Assembly (NCBI RefSeq): GCF_004341505.2
Contig: NZ_SLYP02000001.1
Coordinates: forward strand, 1,003,001 to 1,067,000
Direction: 5' to 3'
Length of the DNA: 64,000 nucleotides
From: Sphingomonas sp. JUb134
GTDB taxonomy: Bacteria; Pseudomonadota; Alphaproteobacteria; Sphingomonadales; Sphingomonadaceae
Position 1 is the first letter of the stretch, and each line of letters begins with the position of its first letter. Of the stretch, positions 48,482-58,422 are shown one piece after another. Position numbers and translations under genes: made by a program. The notes under the pieces were generated by a model, which was not told where the DNA came from, did no database searches, and worked only from the letters and a program-made list of their open reading frames with translations.

Positions 48482-50740
48482 TCAGGGCTTCATGGTGCTG
48501 GCGGCCAGGGTGGTGACTGCGGTCAGCTTGCGATCGGTCGCATCGTGGCCGATCGCCACGCGATAGCGGCCACCCGCGATCCGCCATCCCGGGAGCGCCG
48601 TGTCATAGTCTGCCACGATGCGCGGCTCGGCCGTGAGCGTGACGCGCCGGGTCTCCCCGGGTTTGAGCTCGATCCGCTGGAACGCGGCGAGCCGCATCGG
48701 CTCCTTCGCCCCTTCGCGCACGACGTAGAGCTGCGGCACGTCCGCGCCCGCACGCTTGCCGGTGTTGGTGACCTCGACGGTGACGCTCAGCGTGCGGCCG
48801 CCGGTGACCTTGGGCTTGCGATAGGCGAAGCTGGTGTAGCTGAGGCCATGGCCGAACGGGAACAGCGGCTTCAGCGCCTTCTTCTCGTACCAGCGATAGC
48901 CGACGTCCGCGCCCTCCGTGTAGTCCACGGGGAAGCTCTGGAACTGGAAGTTGCCGGCATTGGCGGGGTTCGCCGCTGCCTGTGCTTCCAGCGAGTTCAT
49001 CGTCTCCAGGCCGACGGGGTTGGGACGCGGCGGCTGGCCGGCGCTGGCCGGGAAGGTGATCGGCAGGCGTCCCGAAGGATTGACCTTGCCGGTGAGGATG
49101 TTGGCGATCGCCTCGCCGCCGCGCTGGCCGGGATACCAGGCCTGTACCACCGCTGGCACCTTCTCGATCCACGGCATCAGCACCGGGCCGCCGGTCTCCA
49201 TCACCGCCACCGTCTTCGGCTGGGCGGTGGCGATCGCGTCGATCAGCGCGTCCTGGTGATCGGGCAGGCGCAGGTCGGGCACGTCCTGCGCCTCGGTCGT
49301 CCATTGCGTCGCGAACACGATCGCCAGGTCGGCGGCCTTTGCAGCCTCTACGGTCGCGTTGAAGTTGCGCCCGTCGACATAGTCGACCTGCACGCCCGGC
49401 AATGCCTTGCGGAGTGCCTCGAGCGGGGAGGAGGCATGATAGGTGATGCGCGCGAACGAGGATGCCGCGCCATAGGCGAGCGGCACTTCGACTGGGGCGC
49501 CGCCGACCGAGCGCACCTGGCTCGATCCGCCGCCCGAAAGCACGCCCACGTCCGCGTTGCCGCCGATCACCACGATGCGCTTGGCGCTGGCGGCGAGCGG
49601 CAGCAGGTTGCGCTCGTTCTTCAGCAGCACGATGCCGGCCTCGGCCGCGCGCTGTGCCACTTCGGCATGCTGGTCGTAAGAGATGGCCTCTGCCGTCGCT
49701 GGCATCGGCGCATCATAGGCGCCGGTCTCGATCAGGCCGGTCAGGTAGCGGATGACCATGTCGTCCAGCCGCGCCACCGGTACCTCGCCGTTCTCGACCG
49801 CCTGCTTGAGCGGCTTGGCGAAGAACAGCGCCTTGTCGAGTTCCTGCCCCGACTGCTGGTCGAGCCCGGCATTGGCGGCCTTGGCGGTCGAATGCACCGC
49901 GCCCCAGTCGCTCATCACCCAGCCGCGATAGCCCCAGTCGCGCTTCAGCACGTCCGTCAGCAACCGCGGGTTCTCGCACGCCCAGTCGCCGTTCACCTTG
50001 TTGTAGGCGCACATGACGGAGCCGGGGCGGCCCTTCTCGATCGCGATTTGGAAGGCGAGGAGGTCGCTCATCCGCAGCGCCTTCTCGTCGATGCGCGCGT
50101 CGACGACCATGCGGCCGGTCTCCTGCGCGTTCAGTGCGAAGTGCTTGACGGTGGAGACGATGCGGTTCGACTGGACGCCGGCGATGTGCGCGCCGCCCAG
50201 CAGGCCGGCAAGCAGCGGATCTTCGCCCAGATATTCGAAGTTACGGCCGTTCCACGGATCGCGGGTCAGGTTGACGCCGCCCGCCAGCAGCACGTTGAAC
50301 CGCTTGGCGCGTGCTTCGGCGCCGATCATCGCGCCGCCTGCGCGCGCGATCTCGGGATCGAAGCTAGCGGCGGTGGCGAGCCCGGAGGGGAGGGCGGTGG
50401 CAACATCGCCCTTGCGCTGCTCGACCTGGTTGGCGACGCCGAGCGACGCGTCGCTCTCGCGCACCAGCGGCACGCCCAGCCGCGGGATGCCGTCGATATG
50501 GCCGGCGGAGGGAATCAGCTCGTTCTTCGTCTTGCCGTTGGCCATGGGCGGGAACAGCCCGTGCACCAGCGCGATCTTCTCGTCCGTGGTCATACGCGCG
50601 ACGACCGCCTCGGCCCGCGCACGCGCATCCCCTGCGGGAGCGGGCGAAGACGCCGCCTGCGGCTCCCGCGCGAGCACCGCCGGCGCGGCCAGGCCTGCCA
50701 GGAGCGATCCTCCGAGCAGCAGGCCATGAAACTTCAACAT
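48482..50740 (-). CDS. bglX: Secreted beta-glucosidase, glycoside hydrolase family 3
   Basis: 752 residues from ATG 50740 with AAGAGG upstream. A signal peptide (ending AAPAVLA) sends it to the periplasm. GH3 N-domain: GIPRLGVPLVRESDASLG-like region, then VKHFALNAQETGR and the nucleophile Asp278 in GWVMSDWGAVHS. GH3 C-domain follows, then an FN3-like domain (about 640-752) with GADVPQLYVVREGAKEPMRL. The length and domain order match BglX-type glucosidases that trim beta-linked glucosides. It is divergent from the TonB receptor, and an operator overlaps the shared promoter region. The exact linkage is unknown. Confidence 0.93.
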   Translation of the reverse strand: MLKFHGLLLGGSLLAGLAAPAVLAREPQAASSPAPAGDARARAEAVVARMTTDEKIALVHGLFPPMANGKTKNELIPSAGHIDGIPRLGVPLVRESDASLGVANQVEQRKGDVATALPSGLATAASFDPEIARAGGAMIGAEARAKRFNVLLAGGVNLTRDPWNGRNFEYLGEDPLLAGLLGGAHIAGVQSNRIVSTVKHFALNAQETGRMVVDARIDEKALRMSDLLAFQIAIEKGRPGSVMCAYNKVNGDWACENPRLLTDVLKRDWGYRGWVMSDWGAVHSTAKAANAGLDQQSGQELDKALFFAKPLKQAVENGEVPVARLDDMVIRYLTGLIETGAYDAPMPATAEAISYDQHAEVAQRAAEAGIVLLKNERNLLPLAASAKRIVVIGGNADVGVLSGGGSSQVRSVGGAPVEVPLAYGAASSFARITYHASSPLEALRKALPGVQVDYVDGRNFNATVEAAKAADLAIVFATQWTTEAQDVPDLRLPDHQDALIDAIATAQPKTVAVMETGGPVLMPWIEKVPAVVQAWYPGQRGGEAIANILTGKVNPSGRLPITFPASAGQPPRPNPVGLETMNSLEAQAAANPANAGNFQFQSFPVDYTEGADVGYRWYEKKALKPLFPFGHGLSYTSFAYRKPKVTGGRTLSVTVEVTNTGKRAGADVPQLYVVREGAKEPMRLAAFQRIELKPGETRRVTLTAEPRIVADYDTALPGWRIAGGRYRVAIGHDATDRKLTAVTTLAASTMKP

Positions 50741-50822
50741 CCTCTTCCCCTTCTCGTGGTGTGGCGCGCTTCGGAGCAAATTCATCGTCCGCGCGCAATG
50801 GCTGTGCTTTTCAGAGCACAGG

Positions 50823-50838
50823 TTGGGAACGTTCTCAA
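50823..50838. promoter_or_regulatory. LacI-type operator O1 near the GH3 gene
   Basis: TTGGGAACGTTCTCAA: a 16-bp palindrome with a central CG and one mismatched pair, in the 180-nt region between the divergent GH3 and TonB receptor starts. The central CG and flanks are typical of LacI/GalR-family operators. It shares GAACGTTCTCAA with O2. The LacI gene at 57373-58422 is the likely binder, inferred from location. Confidence 0.65.
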
Positions 50839-50879
50839 CAACGGTATCGCTCACACTTTCAGCGACACGGCATTGCTGC

Positions 50880-50915
50880 TTGACAACCGTTCGCCTGCTC
50901 AGTGAACGTTCTCAA
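50880..50915 (+). promoter_or_regulatory. Candidate promoter overlapping operator O2, upstream of the TonB receptor
   Basis: TTGACA at 50880-50885 is a perfect -35 box. A 17-nt spacer leads to TGAACG (50903-50908) as -10, a weak match. The second operator (50900-50915, centre GAACGTTC, right half GTTCTCAA) overlaps this -10, so a bound LacI protein would block RNA polymerase. The left half matches the palindrome poorly. The predicted transcript would start near 50915, 45 nt before the receptor's ATG. Confidence 0.55.
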
Positions 50916-50959
50916 TAACGATGCGGGATTACAGCCCGCCGGCAAAAGGGGAGGTTCGG

Positions 50960-53900
50960 ATGCGCGGCTTTACCGCTCGCTCACACACGCAGTTGGTCCT
51001 TGGCGTTTCGGCTTTGGCGTTGATGGCAACACCGGGGACGGCGCTGGCGCAGGATGCCGCAGCTACTCTCGGCAACCCGGGGCCATCCGAGATCGCGGAT
51101 TCGTCGCGTGCCGAGCCGGGTGAGGCCGGCGACGACATCGTCGTTACCGGGATCCGTGCGTCGCTGCGCGAAGCGGTCGACATCAAGCGCGATGCCCAGG
51201 GCGTCGTCGATGCCATCTCGGCCGAGGATATCGGCAAGTTTCCTGACACCAACCTCGCCGAGTCGCTCCAGCGCATCACCGGCGTGTCGATCGACCGCTC
51301 CAACGGCGAGGGGCAGTTCGTCACCGTTCGCGGCTTCGGTCCCGAATACAACCTGGTGACGCTGAACGGCCGGCAGATGCCGACCTCGACACTCGGTGAC
51401 GGCGCCAGCGCGCCCGCGTCGCGCTCGTTCGACTTCGCGAACCTGGCATCCGAGGGCATCGCGGCGGTGGAGGTCTACAAGACCGGACGCGCCGCGGTTC
51501 CCTCGGGCGGGATCGGCTCGACCATCAATATCCGGACGCCGCGCCCGCTCGACAAGCCGGGCATGCGCGGTTCGCTGGCGGTGAAGGGCGTGCTCGACAG
51601 TTCCCGTAACGAGGGCAACCCGATCACGCCGGAAGTGTCGGGCATCATCTCGACCACTTTCGCCGACGATCGCATCGGCGTGCTGCTGAGCGGCGCGTAC
51701 CAGCGGCGCAAGGCAAGCGCCAACTCCGCAAGCGTCGGCTTCCGGGACGGCTTTTTGGGCTCGGACGAAGGCTGGGGTTCGCTGCCGCTGCCCGGGACTC
51801 CTGGCGCCGCCAATATCACCAACCGTCCTGGCCCGAACGACGTTTATGAAATTCCGCAGAGCGCGGCCTATGACCTCATCGACATCGATCGCGAGCGCAT
51901 CAATGGACAGCTGGTGCTGCAGGCGAAGCCGACCGACGCGCTGACGGCGACCGTCGACTTCACCTATTCGAGCAACGAGGTCGAGGTACGCGACAGCAGC
52001 GTCGGCATCTGGTTCAACTTCGCCGACACGTCCAGCGCGTGGACGGATGGTCCCAACGCCGGCCCGCTTTTCTATTCGGAGCGGTTCGGACCGGGCAAGG
52101 ACCTGTCGTACAGCGGCGCGCTGAGCGCCAACAAGTCCGAGAACAAGTCGCTCGGCGGCAACCTCACCTGGGAAGCTCCGGGCGGCGTCACGGTCTCGCT
52201 CGACGCGCACCATTCGACTGCGGAGTCGAAGCCGACCAACAAGTATGGCAGCAGCACGTCGATCGGCAACGCGATCTTCGGCTTGCAGAGCCAGACGATC
52301 GACTTCGAGCACGACATGCCGGTGCTCTCCTATACCATGTATCCGGGCGTCGACCCGCTCGACCGATCGCTGATCACGCCGACCGGCAACTCGTTCCGCA
52401 ACGCCTATTTCAAGGACGAGATCAACCAGGTCCAGCTGAAGGGGCGCTACGATCACGAGGGCAGCTTCCTCGACAGCATCGATGCCGGCTTCTCGTTCGT
52501 CGATAACAAGGTCCGTTCGGCCTATGGCTTCATCCAGAACGACACCTGGGGCGGGATCGGCCCGGCTTCCGACATCCCGGACGACCTGTTCGAGCAGGTG
52601 AGCATCCCGGACAAGTTCGACGGGCTGTCTGGCGCGAATGCGTCGGGCATCATCCCGGCGCTCTACATGTTCAACTTCGAGCGCATGGCGGACCTGCTGG
52701 AGAACAACTACGGCATCTGCAGCGATCCGCAGACCGGAACCGCGCAGCCGGGTACCTGCCTGTCCGACTATACGGTCGATCGGCGGCTCAGCGAGAAGAC
52801 CATCTCGCCCTTCATCCAGTTCAACACCAAGTTCGACCTGTTCGCGCGCCCTGCGCACCTGATCGCCGGCATCCGCTGGGACCACACCAACATCGACTCC
52901 TCGGCACTGGTGCCGGTTCCCGTCGGCACGCGCTGGGTGTCGGCGAACGAATTCAGCGTGATCTATTCGGGTGAGAGCACCTTCACCCGGCTGAAGGGGA
53001 GCTATCAGAACTGGCTGCCGGCCGTCGACTTCGACATCGAGCCAATCGAGAATGTGAAGCTGCGCGCCTCGTATAGCCACACGATCGCGCGCGCCGATTA
53101 TGGCAGCCTGCAGGGTGGTCGTACGATCGACTCCAACCCGCGTATCGGCGGCGGTACCGGCAGCCAGGGCAACGCAGGCCTGCTGCCGTACAAGTCCAAG
53201 AACCTCGATTTCTCGGCCGAGTGGTACTACAATCGCGAAAGCTACGTCTCGGTCGGCTATTTCAACAAGGACGTCTCGAATTTCATCAGCACGACACAGG
53301 TGGACACGCCTGCGTTCGGGCTGCGCAATCCGGCGGCCGGTCCGCGCTATCAGGCGGCGGCCAATGCACTGGGCACCACCGATGCGGTCCGGATCCGCGA
53401 CTATATCCTGCGCAACTTCCCGGACTCGTCGACCGTCACCGGCTCCACGGATGTGGGTGGCGTCACCTACCTGACCGGCGACATCTTCGCGACGGCCGAG
53501 GATCCCCTCTTCAACTTCCAGATCGCGCAGCCCTTCAACAGCGATCAGACGGCGAACATCCATGGCTGGGAGTTCGCAATCCAGCACCGCCTGTGGGAAA
53601 CCGGGCTCGGCGTCATCCTGAACTACACGATCGTGGATGGCGACGCGAAGTTCGACAACACGCTCGATCCGAACGTGGGGCAGTTCGCGCTCACGGGCCT
53701 GAGCGACAGCGCCAATGCGGTGCTCTACTACGACAAGGGCGGCATCCAGGCGCGCGTGGCCTACAACTGGCGTGACGAGTTCTACAACGGCGGCTCGTTC
53801 GATCCCACCTATGTCGAGGCCTATGGCCAGGTGGACGCCAGCGCGAGTTGGGAGTTCGTGCCCGGCCTCACCGCCTTTGTGGAGGCCATCAACCTCACCG

Positions 53901-53998
53901 GAGAGAGCCGGCGCGGACATCGGCGCTCCGACAATTTCGTGACGTTCGCACAGCCGGGCTATGCTCGCTACTCGGGTGGCATCCGCTTCACCTTCTGA
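50960..53998 (+). CDS. TonB-dependent receptor, carbohydrate-type (TonB-Xanth-Caul)
   Basis: 1012 residues from ATG 50960, with AGGGGAGG seven bases upstream; the ATG at 50921 has no ribosome site. A signal peptide (ending TALAQ) precedes a TonB box-like DDIVVTGIRASLREAVD and the plug domain signature AISAEDIGKFPDTNLAESLQ and RGFGPEYNLVTLNGRQMPT, which identify the TIGR01782 (Xanthomonas/Caulobacter) receptor class. The barrel ends GIRFTF. Such receptors import oligosaccharides or other large ligands through the outer membrane. It heads an operon with SapC, cupin, halogenase and LacI genes. Confidence 0.93.
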   Translation: MRGFTARSHTQLVLGVSALALMATPGTALAQDAAATLGNPGPSEIADSSRAEPGEAGDDIVVTGIRASLREAVDIKRDAQGVVDAISAEDIGKFPDTNLAESLQRITGVSIDRSNGEGQFVTVRGFGPEYNLVTLNGRQMPTSTLGDGASAPASRSFDFANLASEGIAAVEVYKTGRAAVPSGGIGSTINIRTPRPLDKPGMRGSLAVKGVLDSSRNEGNPITPEVSGIISTTFADDRIGVLLSGAYQRRKASANSASVGFRDGFLGSDEGWGSLPLPGTPGAANITNRPGPNDVYEIPQSAAYDLIDIDRERINGQLVLQAKPTDALTATVDFTYSSNEVEVRDSSVGIWFNFADTSSAWTDGPNAGPLFYSERFGPGKDLSYSGALSANKSENKSLGGNLTWEAPGGVTVSLDAHHSTAESKPTNKYGSSTSIGNAIFGLQSQTIDFEHDMPVLSYTMYPGVDPLDRSLITPTGNSFRNAYFKDEINQVQLKGRYDHEGSFLDSIDAGFSFVDNKVRSAYGFIQNDTWGGIGPASDIPDDLFEQVSIPDKFDGLSGANASGIIPALYMFNFERMADLLENNYGICSDPQTGTAQPGTCLSDYTVDRRLSEKTISPFIQFNTKFDLFARPAHLIAGIRWDHTNIDSSALVPVPVGTRWVSANEFSVIYSGESTFTRLKGSYQNWLPAVDFDIEPIENVKLRASYSHTIARADYGSLQGGRTIDSNPRIGGGTGSQGNAGLLPYKSKNLDFSAEWYYNRESYVSVGYFNKDVSNFISTTQVDTPAFGLRNPAAGPRYQAAANALGTTDAVRIRDYILRNFPDSSTVTGSTDVGGVTYLTGDIFATAEDPLFNFQIAQPFNSDQTANIHGWEFAIQHRLWETGLGVILNYTIVDGDAKFDNTLDPNVGQFALTGLSDSANAVLYYDKGGIQARVAYNWRDEFYNGGSFDPTYVEAYGQVDASASWEFVPGLTAFVEAINLTGESRRGHRRSDNFVTFAQPGYARYSGGIRFTF

Positions 53999-54127
53999 TC
54001 CGGACGCCCCCCGCCGACACGAAGCTGCGAAAGGGGTCCGCTCGAAAGAGTGTGGCTTCTTTCGCGCTTCGGCGGCAGGTTCGCCGGCGGTGCATCCGCG
54101 CCGCCGTGCCAGGATTGAACCGTCGAC

Positions 54128-54844
54128 ATGCCCAACCATGCCATTCTGACTGCCGACGCCCACCGCAACCTCAAGGTCCGCAACGACCGCGCGGAGGACG
54201 CCGGGGACGCCGTGATGTGCGCCATGGTCGTGCCGGACGAGTTCCGGCAGGTGCAGAACGAATATCCCATTCTGTTCCGCCGCAACCTGGAGCAGGACAG
54301 CTTCGCGGCGTTCGCGATGTTCGGTTTCGAGGATGGCGAGAACCTGTTCCTCGAGGGCAGGCGCTGGGCGGCCCGCTACCTGCCGCTTTCGATCGCGATC
54401 CAGCCGTTCCTGATCGGACGACCGGCGGGCATCGATGCGCCCGAGCGGCAGGTACACATCGACCTCGACAGCCCCCGCCTGGGTTCCGACGGCGTCCGCA
54501 TCTTCGAGGAGGATGGGAGCCCCACTCCTTATCTGGAGGCCGTGATCGAGAAGCTGCGCGTGCTGGATGCAGGCTATGCCGCTTCTGCCGGCTTCTTTGC
54601 GGCATTGCGTCGGTACGATCTGCTCGAACCGCTGTCGCTGGAGGTGCCGCTTCCCGACGGGACCACCCATCGCCTGGTCGGCTTTCACGTCATCGACGAG
54701 GCCAAGTTGCGGGCGCTTGATCCAGCCGAAATCGCCGAGCTGCATGGCGCCGGGCACCTGATGCCGCTCTACATGGCGCTCGCATCGCTTGCCAACATCG
54801 GCCTGCTGGTAGCGCGCAAGAGCCAGCGCCTGCGCCATGGCTGA
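54128..54844 (+). CDS. SapC-family protein
   Basis: 238 residues. SapC-like features include CAMVVPDEFRQVQNEYPILF and the LPLSIAIQPFLIG segment, plus the C-terminal GFHVIDEAKLRALDPAEIAE. The SapC family name comes from surface-layer-associated proteins of Campylobacter, but the function is unproven. In proteobacteria, SapC genes commonly sit behind TonB receptors together with cupin and tryptophan-halogenase-like genes, as here. No signal peptide. The end overlaps the cupin gene by 8 nt. Its role in the sugar locus is unknown. Confidence 0.85.
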   Translation: MPNHAILTADAHRNLKVRNDRAEDAGDAVMCAMVVPDEFRQVQNEYPILFRRNLEQDSFAAFAMFGFEDGENLFLEGRRWAARYLPLSIAIQPFLIGRPAGIDAPERQVHIDLDSPRLGSDGVRIFEEDGSPTPYLEAVIEKLRVLDAGYAASAGFFAALRRYDLLEPLSLEVPLPDGTTHRLVGFHVIDEAKLRALDPAEIAELHGAGHLMPLYMALASLANIGLLVARKSQRLRHG

Positions 54845-55868
54845 CGGCGGAGGCGGCATTTTCGCGGATCTGCCCTCGGTGCCGGAGGAGGCGGTGGCCG
54901 ATGCGGCCGCACTCGACACGCTGCTGCGCACCGCGACCCGGCCGTTCGTGGTCCGGGGACTGGTGGCCGATTGGCCGCTGGTCGCCGCCGGCCGTCGATC
55001 GGCGCGCGACGCGCGTGCCTATCTGCTGGAGCGGCGGCGCGACCTGCCTTTCACCGTCTCGATCGGCCAGCCGGGATCGGACGGCCGGCTGTTCTACGAT
55101 GATGCGATGGGGATGAACTTCCGTATCGCGCGTGCCAAGCTACCGGAGATCTTCGCCCAGATCGACCGCGCGGAGGAGGATCCGGCGGCGCCCCCGATCT
55201 ATCTCGGCTCGATCGACGTCCACGGCTTCTTCGACGGCCTTCATGCCGAGAACCACGTCGACCTGGGCGAGCGCCAGGCCCTGGCGAGCATCTGGATCGG
55301 TACGCGCACGCGCATCGCGGCGCACAACGACCATCCCGACAATCTCGCCTGTGTAGCGGTGGGCCGACGACGCTTCACGCTGTTCCCGCGCGAGCAGTTT
55401 CGCAACCTCTACCTGGGACCGGTGGACAACACGCCTGCGGGGCGCGCGGTCAGCATGGTGGACTTCAACGCCCCCGACTTCGCCCGCCATCCCCGTTTTC
55501 GCGACGCGCTGGCGCATGCGCAAGTCGCCGAGCTGGAGCCGGGCGACGCCGTCTTCATCCCGTCGATGTGGTGGCACCATGTCGAGGGGCTCGCCCCGTT
55601 CAACATCCTGGTGAACTATTGGTGGCGCGACACGCCGCGCTGGCTTGGCCAACCCCAGGACGCCCTCAATCACGCCATGCTCACCATCCGCGACCTGCCC
55701 GACGACGAGAAGCGCCACTGGCGCGACATGTTCGACTACTACGTCTTCGAGAACGACGAGGAGGTGGTCGCGCACATCCCGCCGGACGCACGCAGCGTGC
55801 TCGATCCGCTGACGCCCGAAAGCGCCGGGCGCATCCGCTCCTTCCTCCTGCGGGCGCTCAGCCGATGA
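54837..55868 (+). CDS. JmjC-like cupin domain protein
   Basis: 343 residues. A cupin-8/JmjC-like fold: metal ligands fit HxD in RIAAHNDHPDN and a later His in PSMWWHHVEGLA. RRRFTLFPREQFRNLYLGP and NILVNYWWRD are typical of the cupin-like family (FIH/JMJD5-like oxygenases). Such proteins often hydroxylate proteins or small molecules with Fe(II) and 2-oxoglutarate. The family is recurrently found beside SapC and halogenase genes behind TonB receptors. The stop overlaps the halogenase start (ATGA). Substrate unknown. Confidence 0.83.
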   Translation: MADGGGGIFADLPSVPEEAVADAAALDTLLRTATRPFVVRGLVADWPLVAAGRRSARDARAYLLERRRDLPFTVSIGQPGSDGRLFYDDAMGMNFRIARAKLPEIFAQIDRAEEDPAAPPIYLGSIDVHGFFDGLHAENHVDLGERQALASIWIGTRTRIAAHNDHPDNLACVAVGRRRFTLFPREQFRNLYLGPVDNTPAGRAVSMVDFNAPDFARHPRFRDALAHAQVAELEPGDAVFIPSMWWHHVEGLAPFNILVNYWWRDTPRWLGQPQDALNHAMLTIRDLPDDEKRHWRDMFDYYVFENDEEVVAHIPPDARSVLDPLTPESAGRIRSFLLRALSR

Positions 55869-57367
55869 TCGGCGGCAAGCGCATGCGGCGCATCGTGGTG
55901 GCAGGCGGCGGCACGGCGGGATGGATGGCAGCCGCGGCGATCGCGCGCACCATGGGTCGCGCCGTTGAGGTAACGCTGGTCGAATCGGACGCGATCGGCA
56001 CGGTTGGCGTGGGGGAATCGACCATCCCGCCGCTCATCAACTTCAACCGGCTGCTCGGCATCGACGAGGCCGCGTTCATGGCCGCCACCCAGGCGACCTT
56101 CAAGCTCGGCATCCAGTTCGAGAACTGGATGCTGCCGGGGCACCGCTACTTCCACTCCTTCGGCTTCACGGGGAAGGATCATTGGTCGGCAGGGTTCCAG
56201 CATTTCTGGTTGTATGGCCGCACCCGCGGGCACGACGCACCTTATGATGCCTATTGCGTAGAGCTGATCGCTGCGCTGGAGGGCAAGTTCGGTCACCTGC
56301 CGGGGGATCGGGCGAACTATGCCTATCAGCTCGACGCCACCCTTTATGCTCGCTTCCTGCGCACGATGGCCGAGGGGGATGGTGCTCGGCGGGTCGAGGG
56401 CAAGATCGCGCAGGTCGAACTCGACGGCGAGTCCGGCGACATCGCCGCGCTGGTGCTGGAAAGCGGCACTCGGGTAGGGGGCGACCTCTTCCTCGACTGC
56501 ACGGGCTTTCGCGCGCTGCTGATCGAGCAGACGCTGCATACCGGCTATGACGACTGGACCCATTGGCTGCCGTGCGATTCTGCCATCGCGGTGCAGACGG
56601 ACAATGTGGGTCCGCCCGTCCCCTACACGCGGGCGATCGCGCACGATGCCGGCTGGCAATGGCGCATCCCGCTCCAGCACCGCACCGGCAACGGTCTGGT
56701 CTATTGCAGCCGCTATCTTGGCCGCGACGCGGCGCTGGAACGATTGCTCGGCAATCTTGAGGGGGCGGTGCGCACCGAACCCAATCACCTGCGGTTTACG
56801 ACAGGCGTGCGCCGGCGGCAGTGGGTGCGCAACTGCGTGGCGATCGGCCTGGCCGGGGGCTTCGCCGAGCCGCTGGAGTCGACCAGCATTCACCTGATCC
56901 AGCGTGCGGTGCTCCGCCTGATCCGGATGCTGCCGCTGTCCGCGGTGAGCCCGCGCGACGTCGCCGAGTTCAACGAGCAGCAGCTGCAGGACATGACGCA
57001 GGTTCGTGACTTCCTGATCCTCCACTACAAGGCGACCGAGCGGCGGGACAGCGCCTTCTGGCGGCACTGCGCAGACATGGAAATCCCGGACAGCCTCACC
57101 CAAAAGATCGAGCTGTTCCGCGAAACCGGCCGCGTGTTCCGCAAGAACGAGGAGCTGTTCGCCGAGAACAGCTGGGTGCAGGTGATGATGGGGCAGGGGA
57201 TCGAACCGCGCGCCTGGCACCCGATCGCCGAGAAGCTGCGCGACGAGGAGCTTGCGCGGCTGCTCACGACCCTGCGGGAGAATGTCGCACGGACGGTTGC
57301 TGCGATGCCGCGGCACGCCGACTATGTGGCGAGCTATTGCGGCGCCGCCCGCGAACAGGCGGCTTGA
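55865..57367 (+). CDS. Flavin-dependent tryptophan-halogenase family protein
   Basis: 500 residues. FAD motif VVAGGGTAGWMAAAAIAR; the family signature GVGESTIPPL; the conserved catalytic lysine Lys80 in TFKLGIQFENW, aligning with the PrnA/RebH lysine; the WxWxIP motif at 264-269 (GWQWRIPL); and EPLESTSIH with the catalytic-site Glu. All core halogenase residues are intact. Classical members chlorinate tryptophan; this clade, sitting in TonB/SapC/cupin sugar loci, has no known substrate and may act on phenolics or glycoside aglycones. It is co-translated with the cupin gene (ATGA) and followed 5 nt later by lacI. Confidence 0.9.
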   Translation: MIGGKRMRRIVVAGGGTAGWMAAAAIARTMGRAVEVTLVESDAIGTVGVGESTIPPLINFNRLLGIDEAAFMAATQATFKLGIQFENWMLPGHRYFHSFGFTGKDHWSAGFQHFWLYGRTRGHDAPYDAYCVELIAALEGKFGHLPGDRANYAYQLDATLYARFLRTMAEGDGARRVEGKIAQVELDGESGDIAALVLESGTRVGGDLFLDCTGFRALLIEQTLHTGYDDWTHWLPCDSAIAVQTDNVGPPVPYTRAIAHDAGWQWRIPLQHRTGNGLVYCSRYLGRDAALERLLGNLEGAVRTEPNHLRFTTGVRRRQWVRNCVAIGLAGGFAEPLESTSIHLIQRAVLRLIRMLPLSAVSPRDVAEFNEQQLQDMTQVRDFLILHYKATERRDSAFWRHCADMEIPDSLTQKIELFRETGRVFRKNEELFAENSWVQVMMGQGIEPRAWHPIAEKLRDEELARLLTTLRENVARTVAAMPRHADYVASYCGAAREQAA

Positions 57368-57372
57368 GGCGG

Positions 57373-58422
57373 ATGGCGCGCCGCCGCCAGCGCGTGACGA
57401 TCAAGCACGTCGCCGCCGACGCGGGCGTGTCGCTGCAGACGGTGAGCCGCGTCATCAACAAGGAGCCCAACGTCCGCGCGGAGATGGCCGAGCGGGTGCA
57501 GGCTTCGATCGACCGTTTGGGCTATGTTCCCTCTATCGCGGCGCAGCGCATGGGGGGATCGCGTTCCTATCTCATCGTGGCGCTGAACGATCGGCAGCGC
57601 ACCATCGAGGATTGGCGCAACCGGCAGGGCACCGACTGGGTCGACCAGATGCTGCTGGGCGGCATGCTCACCTGTGCCGAGCACGGCTACCGCATGATCG
57701 TCGAACTGGTCGACACGCACAGCGACCATATCGAACGCGAGCTGTCCGCAGCGCTCGCCGCGCTCCAGCCGGACGGGGTGATCCTGACACCCCCACACTC
57801 GCACAATCCGCTGATTACCGGCCTGCTTGCCGAGCAGCATATCTGCTTTGCGCGCGTGGGTTCGCTGGTCGAGGGCCCAGGCTTCCGGCTGACCATGGAC
57901 GACCAGCATGCCGCCGTGCTGGCGACGGAGCACCTCCTGCAGCTAGGGCACCGGCGCGTCGGCTTCATCGCAGGGCCCAACGACTATGAGCTGAGCGGCT
58001 GGCGCACCCAGGGCTGGCGCTCGACCATGGTGGCGAATGGGCTGGCGGCAGACCTGCTGGCGGTAGGCGACTTCGGCTACGACTCCGGCCTGGCGGCAGC
58101 GGAACGGCTTCTTGCCAGCGCCGCCCCCCCGACGGCGATCATCGCCAGCAGCGAGCAGATGGCGATCGCCACGCTCGACGCCATTCGCGCGCGCGGGCTG
58201 GAGGTGCCAGGTGACGTGTCGCTGGTGAGTTTCGACGACACGCCGATCATGCGCTTCACTCAGCCGCCGCTTAGCGCCGTGGTGCAGCCGATCGCGGAAG
58301 TGACTGCTCGTGCCGTCGAGTTGCTGATCGCGGCGCAGGGCGGCGGCGATCACGAAGACGCGCCGGTGGTTGTGCCGGCGAGGCTGACGATACGGGAGTC
58401 GACGGCAGCGCCGCGCAGGTGA
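57373..58422 (+). CDS. LacI-family transcriptional regulator
   Basis: 349 residues. The N-terminal HTH with hinge reads RVTIKHVAADAGVSLQTVSR and VINKEPNVRAEMAERVQ. The sugar-binding domain has PDGVILTPPHSHNP and HRRVGFIAGPNDYELSGWR, then DVSLVSFDDTPIMRFTQPPL. It would bind the two GAACGTTC palindromes 6.5 kb upstream and control the GH3 gene and receptor operon. The start lies 5 nt after the halogenase stop, so it is the last gene of the operon and probably autoregulates through that promoter. Confidence 0.92.
   Translation: MARRRQRVTIKHVAADAGVSLQTVSRVINKEPNVRAEMAERVQASIDRLGYVPSIAAQRMGGSRSYLIVALNDRQRTIEDWRNRQGTDWVDQMLLGGMLTCAEHGYRMIVELVDTHSDHIERELSAALAALQPDGVILTPPHSHNPLITGLLAEQHICFARVGSLVEGPGFRLTMDDQHAAVLATEHLLQLGHRRVGFIAGPNDYELSGWRTQGWRSTMVANGLAADLLAVGDFGYDSGLAAAERLLASAAPPTAIIASSEQMAIATLDAIRARGLEVPGDVSLVSFDDTPIMRFTQPPLSAVVQPIAEVTARAVELLIAAQGGGDHEDAPVVVPARLTIRESTAAPRR

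Follow-up and report, generated by a model that had tools for sequence, protein, structure and literature searches.

Why is a flavin-dependent halogenase (FDH) encoded in a sugar-uptake locus, and on what does it act? The question is raised by a 64,000-nucleotide stretch of the Sphingomonas sp. JUb134 genome (contig NZ_SLYP02000001.1, positions 1,003,001 to 1,067,000), hereafter the window. In it, a type-1 FDH (55865..57367, plus strand) stands in a row of genes with a TonB-dependent receptor of the TIGR01782 family (50960..53998, plus strand, in an open reading frame (ORF) beginning at 50921). We propose that the halogenase, perhaps together with a neighboring JmjC-like oxygenase, modifies a loop tryptophan of its partner receptor before the receptor is exported. 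The probability of this reading is put at roughly 0.5; it is held there because the contrast between linked and unlinked receptors was weaker in hold-out data than in the training data.

Linkage of halogenases to TonB-dependent receptors

In the genome that contains the window (4.1 Mb, 4 contigs), a PF04820 search retrieved 12 halogenases, none of which is more than 10 kb from a TIGR01782 receptor. Chance neighborhood was rejected as an explanation, given that the 16 receptors above the TIGR01782 cut-off, even when extended by 10 kb in both directions, take up about 9% of the genome. Six of these receptors are FDH-linked and ten are unlinked. SapC occurs at 4 places and Cupin_8 at 5, compared with 12 FDHs, and receptor and FDH are therefore the constant pair.

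The training set comprised this genome and 17 more, of which 16 have a strong FDH and one (G060) has none. Of the 63 FDHs in these genomes, 54 have a TIGR01782 receptor no more than 10 kb away; conversely, an FDH is this close to 33 of the 61 receptors sampled. Four of the nine exceptional FDHs are the sole strong FDH of genomes outside the order (G001, G002, G011, G029). Places within 10 kb of an FDH account for 11 of 19 for SapC and 12 of 14 for Cupin_8, and many FDHs accompany a receptor alone, without SapC or cupin. The other eight SapC places are away from FDHs. Two SapC genes of equal score and length (L024, L025; G000:C1:34920-35585 and 3430341-3431006) are far from any FDH or TIGR01782 receptor and near both ends of contig C1, perhaps reflecting a duplicated contig end or a second role of SapC.

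Hold-out loci were drawn from 249 Pseudomonadota genomes, 39 of which have an FDH at E 1e-100 or better, with six candidates scored per genome. They consisted of 79 FDH loci, taken from the 33 genomes that were new to the analysis, together with 20 unlinked receptor loci out of 40 drawn at random. A TIGR01782 receptor is present within 2.5 kb in 61 of the 79 FDH loci. At up to 3 kb, another 8 have a TonB receptor belonging to a different family, which brings the loci with a receptor of some family to 69/79. The other families were recognized among the 17 hold-out loci without a receptor matching our receptor profile, for which 68 of 79 selected neighbor ORFs were scanned together. Pfam identified nine receptors of other kinds in eight of these loci (L190, L194, L197, L212, L215, L216, L229 and, with two, L225). 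Some have carboxypeptidase-regulatory and barrel-4 domains, and two are weakly siderophore-receptor-like. Two of the 68 ORFs belong to PF13759, another Fe(II)/2-oxoglutarate oxygenase family (alignment A6).

Tryptophan-glycine sites in linked receptors

The window receptor scores 607 bits against a TIGR01782 cut-off of 310 and has plug (PF07715) and barrel (PF00593) domains. We compared 31 training receptors that have an FDH within 2.5 kb with 28 that have none within 10 kb; two intermediate cases were dropped. The strongest aromatic difference is a Trp in the column of W543 of the window receptor (numbered from 50921), present in 18/31 linked and 0/28 unlinked receptors. Within the window genome alone, the figures are 5/6 and 0/10. 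W543-G544 (codons 52547..52552, plus strand), in the sequence QNDTWGGIG, is the candidate halogenase target, and a second Trp-Gly in a predicted loop, W285-G286 (51773..51778, plus strand), is a weaker candidate. W543 is invariant in 78/78 orthologues of the window receptor, and W285 is Trp in 77/78 (0.987). A difference is also seen at receptor residue 1016 (window numbering) near the C-terminal strand, which is Arg in 77% of linked and 32% of unlinked training receptors.

Our main argument is not the conservation of one column but the repeated occurrence of Trp-Gly, at differing sites, across linked lineages and families. Clade A of the linked training receptors has W543 in 5/5 members. Clade B has the motif NWGxLSxxW, with both Trp in 13/13, one member having TWS and one NWA. 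Clade C has [NQ]xWG[YF] and a second Trp-Gly, each in 7/7, and clade D has Trp-Gly in 3/3; the three remaining linked receptors fall outside these clades. Likewise, all nine other-family receptors beside hold-out FDHs contain Trp-Gly (joint chance 0.004 by shuffling each sequence), with 19 occurrences against 9.3 expected. Among these, NNxWGxCC recurs in L216 and L229 and SYGxWGxG in L194 and L215.

The hold-out comparison covered 62 linked and 22 unlinked receptors, after three partial sequences were dropped; its p values treat receptors as independent although they are related. Under a criterion fixed in advance (a Trp at most three columns away from W543, with Gly, Ser or Ala directly after it), 25/46 type-1-linked receptors scored positive compared with 4/22 unlinked ones (p 0.008), and the figure for all linked receptors was 32/62 (p 0.011). 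Types 1 and 2 were assigned by our own motif patterns. The exact W543 column gave 33/62 versus 5/22 (p 0.024), and a Trp within three columns with any next residue 34/62 versus 6/22 (p 0.045). Linked receptors average 2.06 Trp-Gly each and unlinked ones 1.41 (p 0.016), and at least one is present in 46/46 type-1-linked receptors compared with 19/22 unlinked (p 0.03).

In pooled figures, which contain the training data in which the motif was found, W543 is present in 51/93 linked and 5/50 unlinked receptors. At least one Trp-Gly is found in 72/73 receptors linked to type 1, 7/11 linked to type 2 only, 9/9 unclassified and 31/50 unlinked. For type-1-linked and unlinked clusters, the corresponding counts are 55/56 and 25/44 with clustering at 60%, and 24/25 and 22/39 at 45%. 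Observed Trp-Gly totals are 161 against 96 expected by composition for type 1, and 48 against 53 for unlinked receptors. With mixed clusters left out (1, 2 and 6 at the three levels), Trp-Gly ranks first of 400 dipeptides separating linked from unlinked receptors at 60% clustering (69 and 44 clusters, p 4.9e-8). It is also first at 45% (31 and 37 clusters, p 2.3e-4), followed by Ser-Gly (2.5e-4). At 38%, 7 and 25 clusters are left and Trp-Gly is not among the eight dipeptides listed.

The AlphaFold2 model of the receptor has a mean predicted local distance difference test (pLDDT) score of 78.7, with a weak N-terminal third. In the model, strand 504-528 rises from a short turn at 499-503, and W530, which corresponds to W543, lies just beyond it, followed by a long irregular stretch. 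W543 is taken to be at the start of an extracellular loop, because long loops are extracellular by rule and the secondary structure of the model places it in one. The receptor profile had no match among PDB sequences at 1e-8.

Several observations weigh against our proposal. Ten of the 79 hold-out FDH loci have no receptor near by among the ORFs scanned; two of these (L234, L241) are truncated by the end of a contig, and in L201 the nearest one found is about 7.5 kb away. W543 is lacking in 42/93 linked receptors. A Trp is present in 5/50 unlinked ones, two of which are nested in linked clade B (L246), and two unlinked sisters of clade A also keep it; such receptors might be served in trans by an FDH encoded at another place in the genome. 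Unlinked groups share some Trp-Gly too, and the contrast in its mere presence is small across the hold-out (59/62 linked, 19/22 unlinked). A ranking by isolated conservation places W543 and its counterparts high, but other residues are equally sharp. Across a tree of 143 receptors, 3 changes are counted for W543 and 14 for linkage. Among 14 independent pairs, W543 differs in the same direction as linkage in 1.0, in the opposite direction in 0.2 and not at all in 12.8; the figures are 1.5 and 1.0 for any Trp-Gly and 3.8 and 2.3 for two or more. Such pairs are uninformative for W543 and Trp-Gly, as linked and unlinked receptors form clades.

Loss of a second halogenase was considered as a natural experiment and set aside. 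Of the orthologous loci, 77 could be scored, and 65 of these have a type-2 FDH between the receptor and SapC genes, at the equivalent of window positions 53999-54127 (loci L029-L108). It has the motifs SFKQGS, WIWDIG and EPLEAS, and its Lys is kept in 65/65. The 12 loci without it, the window included, do not show a clean loss of Trp, another point against the proposal: W672 is present in 55/65 loci with the enzyme and 4/12 without, and the window keeps W672 despite lacking a type-2 FDH.

These results bear on an explanation in which the Trp-Gly loops form the sugar-binding surface of some clades, while the FDH travels with the receptor for another reason (serving another envelope protein, or SapC) and the association is inherited. 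Linkage and W543 are indeed clade traits, and the unlinked receptors at L242, L246 and L254 keep the Trp with no FDH in the fetched region. Two results make this explanation improbable in our estimate: Trp-Gly turns up repeatedly at differing sites, both from one linked clade to another and in other receptor families, and receptors beside type-2 FDHs only have no Trp-Gly excess (7/11). Four of the latter receptors (L160, L165, L178, L219) have no Trp-Gly at all. In three of these (L165, L178, L219), the residues aligned near the W543 column are C-x-[FY]-C-G-Y, and a different target residue is possible.

Glycan context of the linked loci

To describe the context of linked receptors, up to four large ORFs per locus were assigned by Pfam (87/89 scanned for clade A, 72/72 for B, 84/95 for C), and the best 25 of 72-75 families per clade were considered. 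Among the families listed, clade A receptors neighbor GH3 (9), LacI (5), GH16 (2), GH67 (1), GH1 (1) and MFS (9). Clade B neighbors include GH3 (8), GH10 (4) and GH16 (2), with GH95, GH97, GH9, GH39, GH43 and fucosidase once each. Those of clade C include alpha-amylase (26), GH97 (7), GH31 (2) and pullulanase C-terminal domains (2). With neighbors of starch/maltodextrin, xylan and beta-glucan type, one type of FDH therefore serves chemically different glycans. The window resembles known sugar-utilization loci of TIGR01782 receptors in its receptor family, LacI regulator and glycoside hydrolase neighbor. However, only part of such receptors are FDH-linked (33/61 within 10 kb, as above), and the Trp-Gly excess is found in the linked ones.

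A preliminary description of the window noted that such halogenases recur in sugar loci, and this is borne out by the loci of starch, xylan and beta-glucan type and by the orthologous regions. It also suggested uptake and modification of a glycosylated aromatic compound, with the cupin and halogenase acting on the freed aglycone or on a protein. The data favor the protein branch, through the association with receptor Trp, and an aromatic-aglycone pathway was rejected as first choice, as the FDH contexts are too varied. A small-molecule substrate in general, be it an aromatic aglycone or decoration entering via the receptor or a halogenated signal or defense compound made when glycan is present, seems unlikely. 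It would suit the acceptance of free indole by relatives in vitro (PMC5945002, PMC7336383) and the GH3 gene found in 59/80 orthologous regions. Against it, the same type of FDH occurs in varied glycan loci and beside several receptor families, and many FDHs have a receptor for sole company. In addition, no aromatic-catabolism families were found in the scanned window flanks or among the 25 families listed per tally, though they could lie elsewhere.

The halogenase and its predicted reaction

The window FDH matches PF04820 with 624 bits. As the preliminary description stated, it is intact: GGGTAGW (the flavin-binding GxGxxG), K80 (counted from 55865; codon 56102-56104), WQWRIP (WxWxIP) and EPLEST are all kept. 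Its best matches among solved sequences are Xcc4156 (6y1w, 685 bits), 9luq (545 bits) and BrvH (6frl, 448 bits), compared with at most 282 bits for the listed Trp halogenases. It is thus nearer to Xcc4156 and BrvH than to halogenases of free Trp. Similarity to these two brominating enzymes covers nearly the full length, including the catalytic Lys, GxGxxG and WxWxIP. Both have a more open active site with a solvent-accessible Lys, and they accept indole but do not halogenate free Trp (PMC7336383). Indole as the natural substrate of BrvH is doubted by the paper describing it (PMC5945002), and the Xcc4156 authors suggest a peptide as a possible substrate (PMC7336383). The term TonB is absent from the available text of both papers, and the link to receptors is added here. 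No published link between FDHs and TonB sugar receptors was found in the titles, abstract openings and passages of open-licence PMC literature, which is no proof of absence.

Halogenation of Trp within a polypeptide has precedent. MibH and SrpI, FDHs from the biosynthesis of ribosomally synthesized and post-translationally modified peptides, halogenate the Trp side chain of a ribosomal peptide (PMC10858898); Xcc4156 and MibH are 26% identical (PMC7336383). Their substrates are small precursor peptides, whereas the substrate proposed here, suggested indirectly by sequence association, is a receptor in the outer membrane with about 1000 residues. QhpG is a flavoprotein that modifies Trp in a polypeptide that later becomes part of a periplasmic enzyme (PMC7876137). 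It differs in that it hydroxylates, and the window FDH matches the corresponding model NF049967 of NCBIfam only weakly (22 bits, cut-off 240).

Halide is in short supply in non-marine habitats. In line with the alternative raised in the preliminary description, reuse of the fold for another flavin reaction, it is conceivable that the enzyme acts on receptor Trp as an oxygenase, its halogenase fold reused for hydroxylation or further oxidation. QhpG dihydroxylates peptidyl Trp, and its authors liken its channel to the hypochlorous acid tunnel of halogenases (PMC7876137); the partner cupin also belongs to an oxygenase family. We regard this chemistry as quite unlikely, considering that the catalytic Lys and WxWxIP are kept in 73/73 type-1 FDHs of orthologous loci and that the close relatives Xcc4156 and BrvH brominate in vitro (PMC5945002, PMC7336383).

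Of the 63 FDH-family ORFs, seven have R, S or V in place of the catalytic Lys and mostly lack WxWxIP too. These comprise G000:C1:354089 and 3170240 (L010, L012) and single copies in G009, G047, G052, G055 and G056. All are located in multi-FDH clusters with clade-B receptors, next to intact FDHs, and are possibly pseudo-enzymes or partners.

Two further proteins may take part in the reaction. The JmjC-like Cupin_8 enzyme (54837..55868, plus strand; PF13621, 230 bits against 27.4), a predicted Fe(II)/2-oxoglutarate oxygenase, has an H-x-D iron motif (HND) and a later WWHH, as read from the sequence. Its nearest solved sequences are FIH, JMJD5, C2orf60 and JMJD7; FIH, JMJD5 and JMJD7 are protein hydroxylases, and C2orf60 (TYW5) acts on tRNA. 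The SapC family protein (54128..54844, plus strand; PF07277, 210 bits) gave a model with pLDDT 93.9, for which Foldseek found no PDB match (best E 0.39).

That this Trp is the target, how and when it is altered and to what effect are all inferred, and may be as follows. The locus would be a unit for glycan uptake under the control of LacI, and the halogenase would be there for the sake of the receptor. In the cytoplasm, the FDH, possibly with Cupin_8 and SapC, would act on the newly made receptor and halogenate (as brominating relatives do in vitro) or oxidize the Trp of a Trp-Gly loop, namely W543 and perhaps W285. Modification before export is likely, because inspection by eye shows no export signal in FDH, SapC or Cupin_8 and because FDHs depend on reduced flavin. 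The altered Trp would then be displayed outside the cell, in a loop, and might adjust ligand binding or shield an exposed indole.

Gene organization and regulation of the window locus

All six ORFs that the preliminary description had listed, a GH3 gene divergent from receptor, SapC, cupin, halogenase and LacI genes, are present with family matches. The GH3 glycoside hydrolase (48482..50854, minus strand) contains PF00933, PF01915 and PF14310. Its N-terminus is signal-peptide-like, and translation probably begins later than the ORF start at 50854, near 50740. No NCBIfam GH3 equivalog matched at its cut-off, and its specificity is thus not assigned by NCBIfam. The LacI-family regulator (57373..58422, plus strand, ORF from 57337) contains PF00356 and PF13377. 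As read from the sequence, the starts of receptor, FDH and LacI are likely 50960, 55865 and 57373. The FDH ATG at 55865 overlaps the cupin stop. The preliminary description called the whole operon co-translated, but tight packing extends only from SapC to LacI; the receptor is separated from SapC by 129 bp.

Two LacI-type operators are predicted in the divergent GH3/receptor promoter, TGGGAACGTTCTCA at 50824..50837 and AGTGAACGTTCTCA at 50901..50914. Because both lie in this shared promoter, the GH3 gene and the receptor operon are likely co-regulated by LacI, as had been suggested. The AACGTT core is present in 77/78 upstream regions (the window and 77 relatives) and in 0/77 receptor-interior stretches, a rough control as these are coding, and a near-perfect 14-base palindrome with this core in 54/78. 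Genome-wide, TGNGAACGTTCNCA with at most one mismatch occurs at 3 places, two of which are the window operators, 77 bp apart. The reversed control pattern occurs at 2 places; the operator count is therefore no excess, but the clustering is. A LacI-family ORF is found in 79/80 orthologous regions, compared with 59/80 for GH3, some regions being cut by contig ends.

The locus is flanked on one side by genes for a methylmalonyl-CoA mutase, a radical-SAM/BATS protein and a biotin carboxylase-type protein, and on the other by one for a PutA-like proline dehydrogenase. Among the fetched loci, the closest halogenase is that of Sphingomonas desiccabilis (92% identity). One fetched region (L080) has a second receptor-SapC-cupin-FDH set in opposite orientation.

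Significance

Structures have been solved for FDHs of the Xcc4156/BrvH kind, and their natural substrate is left open in the available text of the papers describing them. We tentatively extend our proposal, at a little under even odds, to Pseudomonadota of several families. In these, the FDH, in many cases accompanied by a JmjC-like oxygenase and SapC, would form a receptor maturation pathway that installs halogenated or oxidized Trp in Trp-Gly loops of several TonB-transporter families, and this would be what much of the ‘tryptophan halogenase’ family does in nature. If so, the annotation ‘tryptophan halogenase’ would be misleading in many genomes, and a post-translational modification of surface proteins, on cell-surface nutrient receptors, would have been overlooked. 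It would also explain the purpose of this enzyme family, a question that is directly testable now that a residue and a peptide are named.

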